From Methylophilus medardicus (GTDB taxonomy: Bacteria; Pseudomonadota; Gammaproteobacteria; Burkholderiales; Methylophilaceae): a stretch of 64,000 nt of DNA. Where the stretch lies: contig NZ_CP040948.1 in the NCBI RefSeq assembly GCF_006363955.1, positions 434,001-498,000 on the forward strand. The letters are read 5' to 3'. Positions 2,980 to 44,801 of the stretch are shown here, one piece after another. The notes under the pieces were generated by a model. It was given only the letters and a program-made list of their open reading frames with translations. It searched no databases and was not told where the DNA came from. Each line of letters begins with the position of its first letter. The stretch's first letter is position 1. The translations under genes and the position numbers were made by a program.

Positions 2980-3767
2980 GTTGCTTTATCGAAATCATGG
3001 GGCAGGGCAAGCCCTTAGTCATGTTGCATGGATGGGGCATGAACAGTGCCGTGTGGGAGCGGGTTGTGAAGCGCCTGTCGGCCAACTACCGCTTATTTTT
3101 GGTCGACTTACCAGGCATGGGCCAAAGTCGTCCGGTCTATCCCTATCATTTGCACAGCGTTGCTGAGGCGGTGGCTGAAGAGATTCCCGGTGTATCGACC
3201 ATTTTGGGTTGGTCTTTGGGCGGCTTGGTCGCGCAACAGATCGCTCTCAATCAACCGGATCGGGTTGAAAAACTCATTCTGGTCGGGACCAATCCTTGTT
3301 TTGTCAGCAAGCCTGACTGGCCACATGGGATTGATGCGCGACATTTTGAACAATTCAACGCGCGTTTCGCGCAAGACTTTAATGCGACTTTGCTTAACTT
3401 TTTGACCTTGCAATGCATGCACGCCAAAGATGCACGCGCGACAGTGCGCCAGTTACGCACCGCGTTTGCGGCTAAACCAACCCCTAGCCAAGATCACTTG
3501 AATCAGGCGCTAGAAATCCTATTGCAAACCGATTTACGCGAAGAAGTGAGCCGCCTGTTTCAGCCAACGTTGTTGATTCATGGTGACCGCGATACGTTGG
3601 CGCCGGTATCGGCGGCGCATTGGTTAGCCATGCACATGCAACGCGCAAGTCTGCGCGTGATTGCAGGCGCGTCCCATGCCCCATTTTTGTCGCATGCCGA
3701 AGTATTTTGCGACGCAGTAGACGGATTCATGGCCGATGATGCCAGCCTTCGGGCAGCGGAGAGCTAA
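2976..3767 (+). CDS. bioH: Pimeloyl-ACP methyl ester carboxylesterase
   Basis: Alpha/beta hydrolase that removes the BioC-installed methyl ester from pimeloyl-ACP methyl ester. The protein is 263 aa. The oxyanion segment LHGWGMN, nucleophile elbow GWSLGG (Ser about residue 80), acid in HGDRDTLAP and base in GASHAPF are all present. It lies between bioF and bioC, so it belongs to the BioC-BioH route of pimelate synthesis. It starts with an ATGA overlap with bioF and its stop abuts the bioC ATG with no gap. Confidence 0.95.
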   Translation: MSCFIEIMGQGKPLVMLHGWGMNSAVWERVVKRLSANYRLFLVDLPGMGQSRPVYPYHLHSVAEAVAEEIPGVSTILGWSLGGLVAQQIALNQPDRVEKLILVGTNPCFVSKPDWPHGIDARHFEQFNARFAQDFNATLLNFLTLQCMHAKDARATVRQLRTAFAAKPTPSQDHLNQALEILLQTDLREEVSRLFQPTLLIHGDRDTLAPVSAAHWLAMHMQRASLRVIAGASHAPFLSHAEVFCDAVDGFMADDASLRAAES

Positions 3768-40788: not shown

Positions 40789-41574
40789 TTAAAGCGGCAA
40801 AGTTTCAAGTAGCGGGTAAGGAGATTTGACGCAAAGCGCTTGCTGCTGATGCAAAGTATGCAAGGTTTGTAAACCAAACTCGATGATCGAGGCTGCAGGT
40901 AGGTGTGGCAGGGAGTGTGCTAACGTGGTCAGGTGATCCAATGCGCTTGTAGTGTTCGCCTGAAATTGCTGCAGTAATTGAAAGGTGATTACGTTTAACT
41001 GGATAAACCGCACCTGATAGTCAGGTGTGCGATACACCAATAAAAACGTGGCTTCTGGTGTGGGGTGCGCATTTTTTTTTGAAATGCATTGCACTGGATA
41101 ATCATAATCTAATAAACGGTGCACCTCTGGTAATTTCAGCACGCATGGGCGCAGTCCATCCGGGGTGGTGATTTGCGTGCTAATGGTGGCGTCATGATGC
41201 GTTTCTACTTGTCGACTGACGGCAAGTTCCACCCATTCATAATGGGCTAATTGCGCGGCAAAGGCAGGGATGTCTACATTCGGCAACGTGCCTGTTTGTA
41301 AATAATCGACAAACGTTTTGGGAATATCCGCGAATAGGGGGCTTTCAAAGGGTTGCGCGTAGAAGCATGCCCGAACCAGCTTGCCAAAACGACGTTTGCC
41401 AAGTAACTGGCTAAGGACTGGAAAACAAGCACGCACACTGGCTAAAAAATTATTAAAGACAATCTCGCGGTAAATGCGCATGCGTTGATCATTGACGCCG
41501 TCGGGTTTGTCGTGGCGCTTGGGGTCACGCAAATGCGCAGTAAATGCGTGCTGGTAAGCCTGAAATGGCAGCAT
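40789..41574 (-). CDS. DUF2063 protein, HvfC/BufC-type RiPP partner
   Basis: A 261-aa soluble protein with the DUF2063 N-terminal fold: LPFQAYQHAFTAHLRDP, then RMRIYREIVFNNFLASVRACFPVLSQLLG and FADIPKTFVDYLQ. In HvfABC/bufferin systems this protein binds the MNIO oxidase and brings the precursor to it. It is the last gene of the operon and shares one base with the DUF692 gene (TGATG), which supports a stoichiometric complex. The C-terminal half is less conserved. It has no catalytic motif of its own. Confidence 0.85.
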   Translation of the reverse strand: MLPFQAYQHAFTAHLRDPKRHDKPDGVNDQRMRIYREIVFNNFLASVRACFPVLSQLLGKRRFGKLVRACFYAQPFESPLFADIPKTFVDYLQTGTLPNVDIPAFAAQLAHYEWVELAVSRQVETHHDATISTQITTPDGLRPCVLKLPEVHRLLDYDYPVQCISKKNAHPTPEATFLLVYRTPDYQVRFIQLNVITFQLLQQFQANTTSALDHLTTLAHSLPHLPAASIIEFGLQTLHTLHQQQALCVKSPYPLLETLPL

Positions 41575-42452
41575 CAGGCCACCTTGCGCCTGATCGGTTG
41601 GCTTTTAGGAGGCATCGTTTGTTGCAGTTCAGCGATGCGATTCACCTCTTGCATGAGCGACGTTAAGGGTGGGATGTTGGTATCTCGCTCTAGCAACGTC
41701 GGAAACACACCTAAATGGTCATAGGCATGCGATAGCAATTGCCAGACTGGATCAATAATCGACTCGCCATGCGTGTCCACCAATACACGGTCCTCGATTT
41801 GTAAGTGGCCCGCCATATGGCCGTACACAATGCGCTCAGCCGGCAGTTGGTTTAAAAATGCATAGGGATCAAAGCCAAAATTAACACTGTTTACATACAC
41901 ATTATTAATATCCAAATGCAAGTCGCAGTCAGCCTCACTTAATACGGCATTGATAAAAATGATTTCATCCATGTCGGCGATGGGGGCGGCCACATAAAAA
42001 GAAGCATTTTCTACCGCAATACGGCGCTCGAGAATGTCTTGGGTTTGTCGGATGCGTTGCGCGACATAGTGGACGGCTTCTGATGTAAAGGGAATCGGCA
42101 GCAAATCATAAATGTAGCCATTGGAGGTGTCGCTACAATAGCTTAAATGTTCGGTGTACAGCGGAATCTCAAAATCGGCTAAAAACTGTTTCACTTGTTT
42201 GAGAAAGCCGACATTTAGCGGATCCGGTCCGCCCAAGGATAAACACAAACCATGGCAAGCAATCGGATAATGTTGGGTTAGCCAGTCGAGTTCGGCAGCA
42301 TATTTACCGCCGGCCTGTATCCAGTTTTCGGGGGCGATCTCTAAAAACTGCAAGCGCTCAAGACTTGGCTGGCCGTGTTGCTGCTTTAATTGGGGCAGCC
42401 ATTCGCGCTTTAACCCCAGGCCTGCACCACAAATATCCGATTGCTGCGCCAT
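41574..42452 (-). CDS. DUF692 multinuclear non-heme iron oxidase, HvfB/BufB-type
   Basis: A 292-aa TIM-barrel enzyme of the MNIO family, which modifies Cys residues in RiPP precursors using a di- or tri-iron centre and oxygen. Likely metal-ligand motifs in order are HGLCLSLGG, TEHLSYCS, VENASFY, DINNVYVNS, YGHMAGH, DTHGESI and LLERDTNIPP. All are present, so it should be active. The preceding gene encodes a secreted Cys-repeat peptide, the presumed substrate, and the following gene the DUF2063 partner. In characterised relatives the product Cys becomes an oxazolone/thioamide or thiooxazole that binds copper. Confidence 0.9.
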   Translation of the reverse strand: MAQQSDICGAGLGLKREWLPQLKQQHGQPSLERLQFLEIAPENWIQAGGKYAAELDWLTQHYPIACHGLCLSLGGPDPLNVGFLKQVKQFLADFEIPLYTEHLSYCSDTSNGYIYDLLPIPFTSEAVHYVAQRIRQTQDILERRIAVENASFYVAAPIADMDEIIFINAVLSEADCDLHLDINNVYVNSVNFGFDPYAFLNQLPAERIVYGHMAGHLQIEDRVLVDTHGESIIDPVWQLLSHAYDHLGVFPTLLERDTNIPPLTSLMQEVNRIAELQQTMPPKSQPIRRKVA

Positions 42453-42469
42453 GATGCTGTTTTTATCCG

Positions 42470-42814
42470 TTATTTGTTAGCGTGGCAAGAACCTTCTTTC
42501 ATTTTTTCAGCAGAGCAGCTCCCTTCTTTCATTTTGTCCGCTGAGCAGCTGCCTTCTTTGGCTTTTTCATGATGGCAGGAGCCTTCCTTCATTTTGTCGG
42601 CGCCGCCGTTAGAGTCTTTCATTTTCTTCATGTTTGCGCCACATTTACCGCTGCCACATTTACCTTCTTTGCCTTTTGCGTCCGTTGCATCAGCCACTTG
42701 ATAGCCTTGAGCCAGTGTTTTAAGTTCAAAGGGATTGTTGCCTGCCTGCGCTGCAGCTGCAGCAATCGATAAAGCAATCGCGCCAGAGATGAAAGTCATT
42801 TTATGTGTCGTCAT
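42470..42814 (-). CDS. HvfA/bufferin-like RiPP precursor with decapeptide Cys repeats
   Basis: A 114-aa secreted peptide. The signal peptide is residues 1-24 (cleavage after AAQA). A spacer (25-47) follows, then GKEGKCGSGKCG (48-59) and a short Met-, Lys- and Asn-rich linker. Four perfect ten-residue repeats follow at 71-110, each ending KEGSC. Six cysteines lie at 53, 58, 80, 90, 100 and 110; there are no others. The EGKCG motif marks HvfA/bufferin peptides, whose cysteines are modified by the MNIO encoded next. AAGGA upstream gives a strong ribosome site. The repeat block departs from the usual EGKCG-only pattern. Confidence 0.88.
   Translation of the reverse strand: MTTHKMTFISGAIALSIAAAAAQAGNNPFELKTLAQGYQVADATDAKGKEGKCGSGKCGANMKKMKDSNGGADKMKEGSCHHEKAKEGSCSADKMKEGSCSAEKMKEGSCHANK
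42485..42604 (-). repeat. Four 30-bp in-frame repeats coding KEGSC decapeptides
   Basis: Four 30-bp units (42604-42575, 42574-42545, 42544-42515, 42514-42485) encode GADKMKEGSC, HHEKAKEGSC, SADKMKEGSC and SAEKMKEGSC. Units three and four are the most alike, suggesting recent duplication. The copy number could vary between strains. Confidence 0.9.
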
Positions 42815-42851
42815 GTTGGTTCCTTTTTAAATCAGGGTTTAAAAGTGGACA

Positions 42852-43100
42852 TCAGTAAAACTTGTCCAGTTGTTGTGTAATGCGGTCCCGTGCGTCTTGT
42901 GACAACGCAACTTCGCTATCTTCGGCCACTTGCTGTTGCCAACCCTGCATTGCGCGGCGAATCCACTGAAGTTGTTGTGCAAAGCGGCGGCAATACACAC
43001 AAATCAGCAAATGCAACCTGACTGCCCAGCGCTCACGCCAAGTGAGCGGGCGATCAAGTGATTGCGAGACCAATACGCTGGTTCGTTTGCAATTCAACAT
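42852..43100 (-). CDS. Zinc-binding anti-sigma factor (ZAS/zf-HC2)
   Basis: A small 82-aa protein from the ATG at 43100, which follows AAAAAGAG. The ZAS motif H-x3-C-x2-C is seen in HLLICVYC (His 30, Cys 34, Cys 37), with a further Cys at 4. There is no membrane segment, so it is a soluble sensor. It directly follows the ECF sigma gene, the classic sigma/anti-sigma pair in which zinc release or thiol oxidation frees the sigma factor. The Neisseria MseR-type proteins are similar in size and context. Confidence 0.82.
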   Translation of the reverse strand: MLNCKRTSVLVSQSLDRPLTWRERWAVRLHLLICVYCRRFAQQLQWIRRAMQGWQQQVAEDSEVALSQDARDRITQQLDKFY

Positions 43101-43126
43101 CTCTTTTTCCGTTTCACTTTCACGTG

Positions 43127-43678
43127 TTACCAATGCATTTCAAGACATTTTCGTAGTCCCATGCGAGCACGGTATAACATTACCCATGCATTGGTCGCAG
43201 TGATATTCAATGCCTTACAAATTTCTTCATTCTCCATTTCATCCACGTCTCGCATGGTAAAAATGGCTGCTAGTTTTTGCGGTAGCCGCGTCATGCATTG
43301 CTGCAATATCTGTAAAAATTGCTTTTGCTGCAAGGCGTCTTGTGGGATGTCCCAAGCTACTGGTTTTTCTGCCCAGTGGCCAGTGTTGTCGAAAAATTCA
43401 TCCATATTGGCATCCTCTTCGGTGAGGAGTTCTGAGGCGGGTATTTCGCGTACTTGCTTACGCATGCAGTCGATGATTTTGTGTTTTAAGATCCCTGTGA
43501 GCCAGGTGCGGGGACTAGATTGCGCGGCATAGTTTGGGTTTTTGATCGCGGCAAGCAGTGTTTCTTGCACCACATCTTCTGCTTGATGTGGATTGCGCAA
43601 TCTCGCTAGTGCAAATCGATATAAATAGTCGCCATGCTCATTGAGCCAGTCATGTGGATTCGTCGCCATGGCAGTCAT
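43127..43678 (-). CDS. ECF-type RNA polymerase sigma factor
   Basis: A 183-aa group 4 sigma factor. Region 2 spans YLYRFALARLRNPHQAEDVVQETLLAA and SSPRTWLTGILKHKIIDCMRK. Region 4 is FLQILQQCMTRLPQKLAAIFTMRDVDEMENEEICKALNITATNAWVMLYRAR, an intact helix-turn-helix. A second ATG at 43669 could also be the start. Only 11 bp separate it from the DUF1841 stop, so its promoter must lie in or above that gene. It probably controls the metal-peptide genes that follow and itself, as in related loci. Confidence 0.92.
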   Translation of the reverse strand: MTAMATNPHDWLNEHGDYLYRFALARLRNPHQAEDVVQETLLAAIKNPNYAAQSSPRTWLTGILKHKIIDCMRKQVREIPASELLTEEDANMDEFFDNTGHWAEKPVAWDIPQDALQQKQFLQILQQCMTRLPQKLAAIFTMRDVDEMENEEICKALNITATNAWVMLYRARMGLRKCLEMHW

Positions 43679-43689
43679 TGAAGCATAAT

Positions 43690-44139
43690 TCAGCTTGAAG
43701 GGGCAATACCGGCGCGCTGTTCAATGAGTTGCAGATAATGCGCAGCATCCAGCCCGGTTTGTTGGCGCTGTGCCAGCCAGATTGTTTCAGCTAGACATTC
43801 GAGTAAGGCGTGTTGGGCTTCATGCTCTTCTTGAAACTTTGTGCACAGGTTGCCGTAAGCCTGCGTGATGCCTATAGGTTGATTGATGCTGATCTGCTCT
43901 TGTATCGACAGGTGCAAGCTCATGTGCAAGAAAGGATTGGTTTCACCCATTTCTGGGAAGTAGGCTTGTTCGAGAGATTGCTCGGGATGATCCAGTGTGG
44001 CATGGTATTCAGGATGCATATGCACAATGCCTACCGCCATTTTTTCCAGGGGGGTGAGCGTCTGCTGTTGCTTGAATTTGGCCCAAGCATCAAAGAAAAA
44101 CTGACGAACCTCGTCGCGGCTGGGGTTGAATAAAGCCAT
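43690..44139 (-). CDS. DUF1841 family protein
   Basis: A 149-aa soluble helical protein matching DUF1841 of beta- and gammaproteobacteria: MALFNPSRDEVRQFFFDAW, MHPEYHATLDHPE and NPFLHMSLHLSIQEQISINQPIG are typical. The recurrent His and Glu residues (HMHPEYH, FLHMSLHLS) could bind metal, but no function is established. It lies two bases after nth and 11 before the sigma gene. Confidence 0.8.
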   Translation of the reverse strand: MALFNPSRDEVRQFFFDAWAKFKQQQTLTPLEKMAVGIVHMHPEYHATLDHPEQSLEQAYFPEMGETNPFLHMSLHLSIQEQISINQPIGITQAYGNLCTKFQEEHEAQHALLECLAETIWLAQRQQTGLDAAHYLQLIEQRAGIAPSS

Positions 44140-44141
44140 GG

Positions 44142-44801
44142 TTAACTCTCTGCCGGTGGTTTTACCGGACGTAGTTGTTTGTCGTGAAATTCACATAAGT
44201 CGGCGATACAGCAATCGCCACATTTGGGGCTGCGCGCAGTGCAGGTATAACGACCATGCAAAATCAACAGATGATGCGCATCTCGCAGAAACTGTTTCGG
44301 CGTGAGGCTTAAAAAGCGCTGCTCAACCTGTAGCACATTTTTACCCGTCGCTAGTTTGGTGCGGTTGCCGACGCGAAACAAATGCGTGTCGACTGCAATT
44401 GTCGGCTGACCAAAGGCCGTGTTTAGAATCACGTTAGCCGTTTTGCGACCCACACCAGCCAGTGCCTCGAGTGCAGCTCGGCTCTCTGGCACTTCGCCGC
44501 CATGTAGCTCTACCAGTTGCTGGCAGCACTTGAGAACATTATTGGCTTTGGCATGGTAAAGGCCGATGGTTTTGATATAACTTTCTAATCCGGCTAAACC
44601 TAAATCCAGAATAGCTTGCGGTGTGTTGGCGACTTTAAATAATTTCCGCGTGGCAATATTGACGCCTTTGTCGGTCGCTTGTGCCGATAAGATGACTGCA
44701 ATCAATAGTTCAAAGGTAGAGCTGTGTTCAAGTTCTGTCGTTGGATCTGGGATGGCTTGCGCCAGCCGTTCAAAAATAGCGAGTCTTTTTTGTGCGTTCA
44801 T
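44142..44801 (-). CDS. nth: Endonuclease III
   Basis: Base-excision repair DNA glycosylase/AP lyase for oxidised pyrimidines, 219 aa. The helix-hairpin-helix with the catalytic Lys is in LAGVGRKTANVIL, the Asp in AVDTHLFRVGNR, and the [4Fe-4S] loop is C-x6-C-x2-C-x5-C in CTARSPKCGDCCIADLC. It follows rsxB by about 27 bp on the same strand. Confidence 0.96.
   Translation of the reverse strand: MNAQKRLAIFERLAQAIPDPTTELEHSSTFELLIAVILSAQATDKGVNIATRKLFKVANTPQAILDLGLAGLESYIKTIGLYHAKANNVLKCCQQLVELHGGEVPESRAALEALAGVGRKTANVILNTAFGQPTIAVDTHLFRVGNRTKLATGKNVLQVEQRFLSLTPKQFLRDAHHLLILHGRYTCTARSPKCGDCCIADLCEFHDKQLRPVKPPAES

Follow-up and report, generated by a model that had tools for sequence, protein, structure and literature searches.

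A captophorin-class operon of Methylophilus medardicus with a predicted sigma-dependent promoter inside its own sigma factor gene

A 64,000-nucleotide stretch of the Methylophilus medardicus chromosome (positions 434001-498000 of the single 2.60 Mb contig NZ_CP040948.1), referred to here as the window, carries five minus-strand genes that encode an extracytoplasmic function (ECF) sigma factor, a soluble ZAS anti-sigma factor, a Cys-repeat precursor peptide, an HvfB-type multinuclear non-heme iron oxidase (MNIO) and an HvfC-type partner. The operon is a member of the captophorin/oxazolin (HvfABC) class and, as judged from its genes and motif, is regulated like the Neisseria sigma-E/MseR operon. 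Three features go beyond the known class, none of them mentioned in an earlier note on this DNA: a predicted promoter inside the sigma gene, which the comparative evidence supports well, distant genes that would belong to the same regulon, and unusual core motifs in the precursor. Sequence comparison established the gene identities and families, the motif, its conservation and its loss together with the sigma factor. The explanation as a whole, a Sec-exported captophorin operon in which an intragenic, sigma-driven promoter would give feedback without sigma autoregulation, is considered likely. We put at slightly better than even the broader proposal that in 11 family-level groups the target promoter lies within the codons of the DNA-reading domain and forms a feedback-only switch, and that the Methylophilaceae enzyme lost a Phe gate while its substrate changed from EGKCG to EGSC(S/H/N). 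If this is true, the DNA encoding the helix-turn-helix that reads the -35 element is itself a -35/-10 element, a feedback-only switch controls copper peptides, periplasmic methionine-sulfoxide repair and a DUF1223 protein, and the Methylophilaceae captophorins have new core sites.

The sigma gene lies at 43127..43678 on the minus strand, and its product scored 202 bits against the TIGR02943 model (cut-off 162). The predicted promoter, GTAAGG-N15-CGACCAA (43191..43218, minus strand; -35 element 43213-43218, -10 element 43191-43197), overlies the helix-turn-helix codons of this gene, 90 nt before the start of the anti-sigma gene. This copy had no mismatches and was the sole match in the 64 kb at ≤1 mismatch, but 14 of 100 shuffled sequences also held at least one match at that threshold, so the window alone was not convincing. 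It is the synonymous conservation across other loci that makes the comparative test convincing where the window would not be.

The conserved stretch might reflect only the protein conservation of the helix-turn-helix combined with codon bias, the whole operon being read from an upstream promoter. The amino acids concerned (CK-L-x-I-[TS]-x-T-N) are well conserved in the sigma-first gene order, short gaps to the DUF1841 gene make read-through plausible, and a Leu codon outside the motif, considered below, is likewise biased. Sigma genes of adequate length were available at 98 loci; at 83 the gene was co-directional with and upstream of the MNIO gene, and at the other 15 it was either divergent (5) or downstream (10). 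Left out were five loci whose sigma open reading frames are short or broken (L069, L083, L100, L101 and L140), four of which, all but L101, have a motif-like hit. A test of third-base bias that uses no motif was applied to the 83 loci. The third base of codon 161 was G in 82 of them (22.7 expected), whether the codon stood for Ala, Pro, Thr or Ser; codon 154 ended in T in all 83 (30.7 expected) and codon 155 in G in 82 (31.5 expected). Codons 161, 154 and 155 ranked first, third and fourth of 182 columns for third-base bias. The pattern GTMAGG-N15-CGACNAA was present in 78 of the 83 loci, against a mean of 3.3 and a maximum of 8 in 200 synonymous recodings that kept each gene's own codon usage, and was found inside sigma in none of the 15 loci with other gene orders. 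A relaxed form, GTMAGR-N15-CGWCNAA, was found in 81 of the 83, in 11 family groups. A sigma-70-type promoter upstream of the sigma or precursor gene was tried as a candidate and rejected, the window scan having given no excess (4 found, 7.3 expected). These results, above all the recodings, the G retained across different amino acids and the orthologs lacking the motif in other gene orders, make protein conservation plus codon bias a very unlikely account.

The position of the motif differed in some other loci. L116 has no intragenic copy and carries an exact copy, GTAAGGAATCGTCAGTTCATTCGTCTAA, upstream of the precursor gene instead, and three of the five divergent-sigma loci (L179, L186 and L188) also have an exact copy in front of the precursor, at the anti-sigma end. 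No exact motif was found in the 400 nt before the sigma open reading frames, where the one single-mismatch hit was at L116, and at ≤1 mismatch no further motif was found upstream of sigma or precursor in the window. Two side observations concern the sigma gene itself. It appears split into two or three open reading frames at L069, L083 and L101, where hits for precursor, MNIO and HvfC remain, and its codons 60 and 64 encode Leu as CTC far beyond the prediction from codon usage (50 of 83 at Leu64, 10.5 expected).

The motif was derived from the regions upstream of msrP in the genus, for which 22 genomes were compared (the named genus mates are Methylophilus), and the copy in the sigma gene then surfaced in a scan that allowed ≤4 substitutions. 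The msrP upstream regions align on a GTAAGGTTT-N12-CGAC(A/T)AA-like stretch, and GTAAG...CGAC(A/T)AA with a 28-nt span is present at 19 of 20 msrP loci, the exception being L214 of genome G068. The neisserial sigma-E consensus is reported as GTMAGBWTT, 12-13 nt, CGTCTAAH (PMC2893595). The msrP motif (GTAAGGTTT, 12 nt, CGACTAA) agrees with it in the -35 element and the spacing and differs in the -10 element, CGAC versus CGTC; at the sigma gene the -35 region reads GTAAGGCAT. The final pattern, GTAAGG-N15-CGACHAA, gave 65 exact matches in the 22 genomes and its reversed form 6. Three of the exact matches belong to this genome, one within the sigma gene, one upstream of msrP and one upstream of a DUF1223 gene. 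The msrPQ-like genes encode an oxidoreductase-molybdopterin protein and a ferric-reductase-like membrane protein, names that rest on family matches or on reading of the sequence, and a DoxX gene lies downstream of them (G000:C1:1242.8 kb). The DUF1223 gene, which encodes an exported protein (L231, 688-1470, minus strand; G000:C1, about 194.7 kb), begins 30 nt past its exact motif. The matches before msrPQ-doxX and the DUF1223 gene predict a sigma regulon. In the 23 loci, out of the 65 matches, whose contexts were examined, the motif also precedes DoxX itself (L251 and L262), Cys-rich precursors beside a second MNIO (L123 and L253) and other exported proteins (L245 and L259). The predicted regulon would comprise the captophorin, MsrPQ-DoxX, DUF1223 and, in some relatives, a second Cys-peptide operon, and it gives DUF1223 and DoxX a functional context. 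As a separate observation, DUF1223 look-alike proteins are encoded downstream of the motif in four more genus loci (L250, L252, L257 and L259).

A sigma ortholog (E ≤ 1e-30) was found in 19 of the 22 genus genomes, and all 19 carry an exact motif within the sigma gene. The genomes without it are G063 (99% complete), G068 (100%) and G076 (80%), and the first two are the only ones of the 22 without any exact motif. G068 retains an msrP gene that lacks the motif; G063 has no msrP match and preserves the order nth-DUF1841-precursor-MNIO-HvfC with no match to sigma or anti-sigma. Genome G075 (L293, G075:C12:102000-109500) keeps nth, DUF1841, sigma, motif and anti-sigma, with no match to precursor, MNIO or HvfC in the 4.7 kb downstream; retention of the motif there, with the captophorin genes missing, fits a feedback role for the promoter. 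The motif might be real and yet be the site of another regulator or sigma factor, since its assignment was made by sequence comparison and G076 has the motif with no sigma hit. The fit of the -35 element and spacing to the neisserial consensus argues against this, as does a motif count of zero in exactly the two genomes of at least 99% completeness that lack the sigma factor, and we regard another regulator as very unlikely.

Besides G076, several observations weigh against an intragenic promoter served by this sigma factor, 1) Leu64, outside the motif, ranked second of the 182 columns, so that some synonymous bias has other causes, 2) common ancestry inflates all of the z-scores (mean 2.2) and near-duplicates may remain among the 83 loci, 3) the intragenic -10 element is CGACCAA in 66-67 of the 83, while msrP promoters have CGACTAA or CGACAAA, 4) L102 retains sigma yet no relaxed motif was found there, 5) two of the five divergent loci (L190 and L191) show no exact copy, 6) the strict pattern derived from msrP missed the sigma copy at one mismatch and gave 15 matches in this genome versus 24 for the reversed control, and 7) the final pattern was widened after the sigma copy had been seen.

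The gene assignments of the earlier note were confirmed, with the corrections given below. The open reading frame calls agree with its five minus-strand genes, including the one-base overlap of the MNIO and HvfC genes, and curated models scored above cut-off for the ECF sigma factor, the anti-sigma factor, the MNIO and the DUF2063 partner; together with synteny they back an operon of the HvfABC type that has an ECF/ZAS pair of its own. The anti-sigma factor (42852..43100, minus strand; 82 amino acids) passed zf-HC2 (29.2 versus 22.2 bits) and NF052368 (78 versus 50 bits). Its start is most likely ATG 43100 and not TTG 43133, and with this start Cys4, His30, Cys34 and Cys37 fall at the residue numbers of meningococcal MseR, in which the same four residues are reported to have been studied (PMC2893595). 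The C-x25-H-x3-C-x2-C spacing occurs in 93 of the 102 loci with an anti-sigma hit. The MNIO (41574..42452, minus strand), the only one in the genome at the cut-off used in a genome-wide search, scored 392.6 bits against the HvfB equivalog model NF003818 (cut-off 360) and aligns with PDB 3bww over residues 9-280 at 246 bits. The HvfC-type partner (40789..41574, minus strand), with DUF2063 and an NGO1945 C-terminal domain of the RiPP (ribosomally synthesized and post-translationally modified peptide) recognition element (RRE) type, scored 226.8 bits against the HvfC equivalog model NF050145 (cut-off 142), was over the cut-off for PF09836 and PF22106, and matched PDB 3dee at 28 bits. The note had also used the term bufferin-like; in the strict sense the locus is no bufferin, and membership in the bufferin Buf1 group was rejected, there being no DUF2282 match for the peptide at E ≤ 0.01 and a score of 265 bits for the BufB model NF050167 (cut-off 310).

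The precursor gene (42470..42814, minus strand) is an open reading frame of 114 amino acids with a Sec-type signal, an NPF-containing leader and six core Cys residues. It agrees with the predicted Cys-repeat peptide in type, but its score against the HvfA model was only 27 bits (cut-off 95), and it fell just under the cut-off of a KCG-repeat domain (17.7 versus 19.5 bits). The support for secretion, which the note had inferred, goes only as far as a putative Sec-type signal peptide, the signal-like N terminus being residues 1-24 as judged by eye. Of the six core sites one is EGKCG, one SGKCG and four are EGSC, with Cys at 53, 58, 80, 90, 100 and 110. The last four belong to decapeptide repeats KEGSC(H/S) in residues 76-114 (42473..42589, minus strand; PF25296 23 bits, below the cut-off of 45), which are spaced by exactly ten residues and include several Met. 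The heterocycles or thioamides proposed for such peptides are now narrowed, the modification of the class having been assigned as 5-thiooxazole on Cys and its products named captophorins (PMC13097082); absorbance at 305 nm and copper binding are further marks of the class.

The change of core sites may have a counterpart in the enzyme. The MNIO carries ERD-Thr258 where the homologue 3bww has ERD-Phe, and Thr258 can be equated, provisionally, with Phe250 of FonB, as judged by its place behind the ERD motif, by the Asp-Phe pair and by the alignment to 3bww. In the FonB model, as described, Phe250 touches the residues on either side of the substrate Cys, and a Phe250Asp variant processed to completion a substrate carrying Phe ahead of Cys, on which the wild type had failed (PMC13097082). 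The equivalent residue is Phe in all 10 outgroup loci compared and is not Phe in 77 of the 78 Methylophilaceae loci listed, duplicates included (the exception is L107). Enzyme and substrate were compared in 147 loci, L052 and L159 having been dropped where the precursor was not located and L032 removed by a filter. Residues other than Gly or Ala follow Cys in 53 of 74 loci without Phe/Tyr at this position, where they are Ser, His, Asn or Lys, and in 4 of 73 loci with Phe/Tyr; two of these four, L137 and L156, are probable pattern-matching artefacts from non-motif Cys. At L140, from another family, the position is Leu and the motifs are DAKCA/DAKCS, a second case in the same direction. The other 21 of the 74 loci keep Gly/Ala alone, and the tree allows only 3-4 independent changes, so that significance was unreachable (median p 0.5 in a sign test that left out L137 and L156). 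A strict link between the two residues was rejected, given the few changes, the 21 exceptions and the single modification by FonB of a substrate with an LVHCY motif (PMC13097082). EGSCG occurs alongside Phe at L191-L193, and Phe is therefore compatible with Ser before Cys. The co-change of Phe loss with EGSC(S/H) core sites is only suggestive; it makes MNIO substrate selectivity testable with natural variants.

It is somewhat doubtful, if a serious possibility, that only the two GKCG sites are modified and the EGSC repeats serve as plain Cys ligands or spacers. The N-terminal GKC pair is by eye the least varied part of the precursor, and at position five of the repeat FonB is reported to have accepted no replacement of Gly other than Ala (PMC13097082). 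On the other side stand the LVHCY substrate, which indicates that the residue after Cys is no absolute bar, the lack of Phe at the equated position in nearly all Methylophilaceae loci listed, the activity of the FonB Phe250Asp variant, and the exact ten-residue spacing kept across the repeats of this peptide. The preferred reading is that HvfB and HvfC would oxidise the precursor cysteines, probably at the EGSC(S/H) sites as well as at EGKCG. As a separate observation, some Methylophilus-group genomes have a second MNIO as a single protein of 548-579 amino acids (L119, 5481-7127, plus strand; L121, 2758-4407, minus strand; L123, 5467-7206, plus strand). Its C-terminal part resembles by eye the DUF2063 partner, a possible natural B-C fusion, and it adjoins a Cys-Lys precursor at these three loci.

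ECF control of MNIO operons is already known and is not new here. The published accounts cited describe several related systems. One of the closest, the Neisseria sigma-E/MseR operon, shares the ECF sigma factor, a ZAS protein with Cys4/His30/Cys34/Cys37, an EGKCG-type precursor, the MNIO and PME1, as well as a GTAAGG-type -35 element, similar spacing and a methionine-sulfoxide reductase in the regulon. The meningococcal operon NMB2140-2145 is described as transcribed under its own sigma factor and autoregulated, with msrAB in the regulon (PMC2893595, PMC3240639), and gonophorin as the product of the N. gonorrhoeae counterpart ngoABC (PMC13097082). Unlike that autoregulated operon, the M. medardicus locus has the motif inside sigma and no exact motif upstream of it; unlike the Neisseria-like loci (L195-L200), where sigma and anti-sigma end the operon, it has sigma first. 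In H. influenzae, RpoE2 is paired with HrsE, a small cytoplasmic anti-sigma factor, and is reported to control msrAB as well as a gene cluster for DoxX, COG3767, COG3220 and DUF2063 proteins, with hardly any effect on its own gene (PMC7907618). The likeness lies in the small cytoplasmic anti-sigma factor, a regulon made up of a homologous DoxX-DUF cluster and Msr, and little sigma autoregulation; H. influenzae, in contrast, has its sigma gene at a locus apart from the DoxX-DUF cluster. The modified sites of H. influenzae oxazolin HvfABC are given as EGKCG repeats (PMC13419390), unlike the EGSC sites described above. The fontiphorin system FonABC likewise has an HvfB-type MNIO, a PME1 partner and a Cys-repeat precursor, but FonB, with Phe250, strongly prefers a small residue after Cys, apart from the LVHCY case (PMC13097082), whereas here the enzyme has Thr258 and Ser or His follows four of the six Cys.

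A precedent for the promoter is E. coli rseA P3, which depends on sigma-E, lies within the sigma coding region and drives the anti-sigma genes; it starts 228 nt upstream of rseA and accompanies a sigma-E-dependent rpoE promoter (PMC8595263). The M. medardicus motif differs in being the sole exact sigma-type motif at the locus, in overlying the helix-turn-helix codons and in that it would also drive a RiPP operon. The C. metallidurans gigPABT-rpoQ-rsqA genes resemble the present locus as an MNIO-like/DUF2063/DoxX operon beside an ECF sigma pair, and differ in a divergent sigma gene, a predicted membrane-bound anti-sigma factor and a four-Cys GigP precursor; a promoter upstream of gig was, by that report, not identified (PMC10304878). 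One survey places sigma and NrsF genes with Buf1 clusters and describes EGKCG clusters as mainly core genes with few extras (PMC12452194). Intragenic promoters and ECF factors are named together in PMC10771440 and PMC13171946. In the open-access titles and abstract openings searched, subscription journals being outside the search, neither a promoter inside this sigma gene nor EGSC-type captophorins were described. The operon links captophorin copper peptides with Neisseria and Haemophilus sigma regulons of unclear role, and a non-pathogenic methylotroph offers a host in which both can be tested. At the intragenic promoter the same bases must satisfy a protein code and a promoter code, which synonymous edits can separate.

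In the proposed mechanism the sigma gene, as part of the nth-DUF1841 transcription unit, would probably be produced at a steady low level from a presumed upstream promoter, and the ZAS anti-sigma factor would restrain the sigma factor as long as its Cys/Zn site stays undisturbed. A redox or metal signal acting on that site would release sigma, which would then start transcription at GTAAGG-N15-CGACCAA in its own gene; the resulting mRNA would include anti-sigma, precursor, MNIO and HvfC and leave out sigma. Because such an mRNA carries the anti-sigma but not the sigma gene, product and inhibitor would rise together, a negative feedback with no positive autoregulation. Elsewhere on the chromosome the sigma factor would also drive msrPQ-doxX and the DUF1223 gene, and this shared control would join copper sequestration with periplasmic methionine-sulfoxide repair. 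By analogy with the class, the operon product would be a Sec-exported, MNIO-modified captophorin-class metallopeptide that buffers copper in the periplasm; we infer the thiooxazole chemistry, the copper role and the signal.

The leading candidates for the inducing signal, again by analogy, are HOCl, H2O2 and copper. The operon might mainly serve hypochlorite or oxidative stress, copper binding being a side effect, with the peptide Cys and Met as sacrificial scavengers and MsrPQ as the repair system. The predicted regulon partners (msrPQ-like here, msrAB in relatives) and the Met residues of the repeats are in line with such a role, as are reports of increased rpoE2 expression in H. influenzae under HOCl and H2O2 (PMC7907618). 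The class members fontiphorin and gonophorin, however, are reported to bind copper (PMC13097082) and the related C. metallidurans gig operon to be induced by copper and gold (PMC10304878), and a mainly oxidative function is considered rather unlikely. Against the oxidants among our own candidates, the homologous meningococcal regulon is described as not induced by H2O2, diamide or singlet oxygen (PMC2893595).

The five-gene arrangement is not due to chance. An MNIO match was found in 114 of 187 family genomes, in some only or also to a second paralog, mostly 36-41% identical. In the neighbourhood survey called for in the earlier note, 66 of the 72 Methylophilaceae loci examined, duplicates dropped, had the full set of sigma, anti-sigma, precursor, MNIO and HvfC hits, usually after nth and DUF1841; elsewhere in the order, sigma and anti-sigma accompany the MNIO in 37 of 68 loci. 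In the window the DUF1841 gene (43690..44139, minus strand; PF08897 193 bits) is directly upstream of sigma with an 11-nt gap, and is preceded by a housekeeping neighbour, an nth-like endonuclease III gene (44142..44801, minus strand), an open reading frame named from reading its sequence. In four gammaproteobacterial outgroup loci (L049, L052, L055 and L056) nth, DUF1841, MNIO and HvfC follow one another in this order and the sigma pair is missing, from which we infer that sigma and anti-sigma entered a housekeeping unit by insertion.

Clusters of the captophorin/oxazolin class often, though not always, include a DoxX gene. Neisseria has a DoxX-like gene inside the operon, whereas here DoxX accompanies msrPQ elsewhere, and the four DoxX hits of the genome all lie outside the operon and the window. 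At another place in the genome (L201), two small DoxX-family membrane protein genes (1752-2141 and 3217-3621, minus strand) are about 1.1 kb apart, with an open reading frame between them that is LysR-like by eye.

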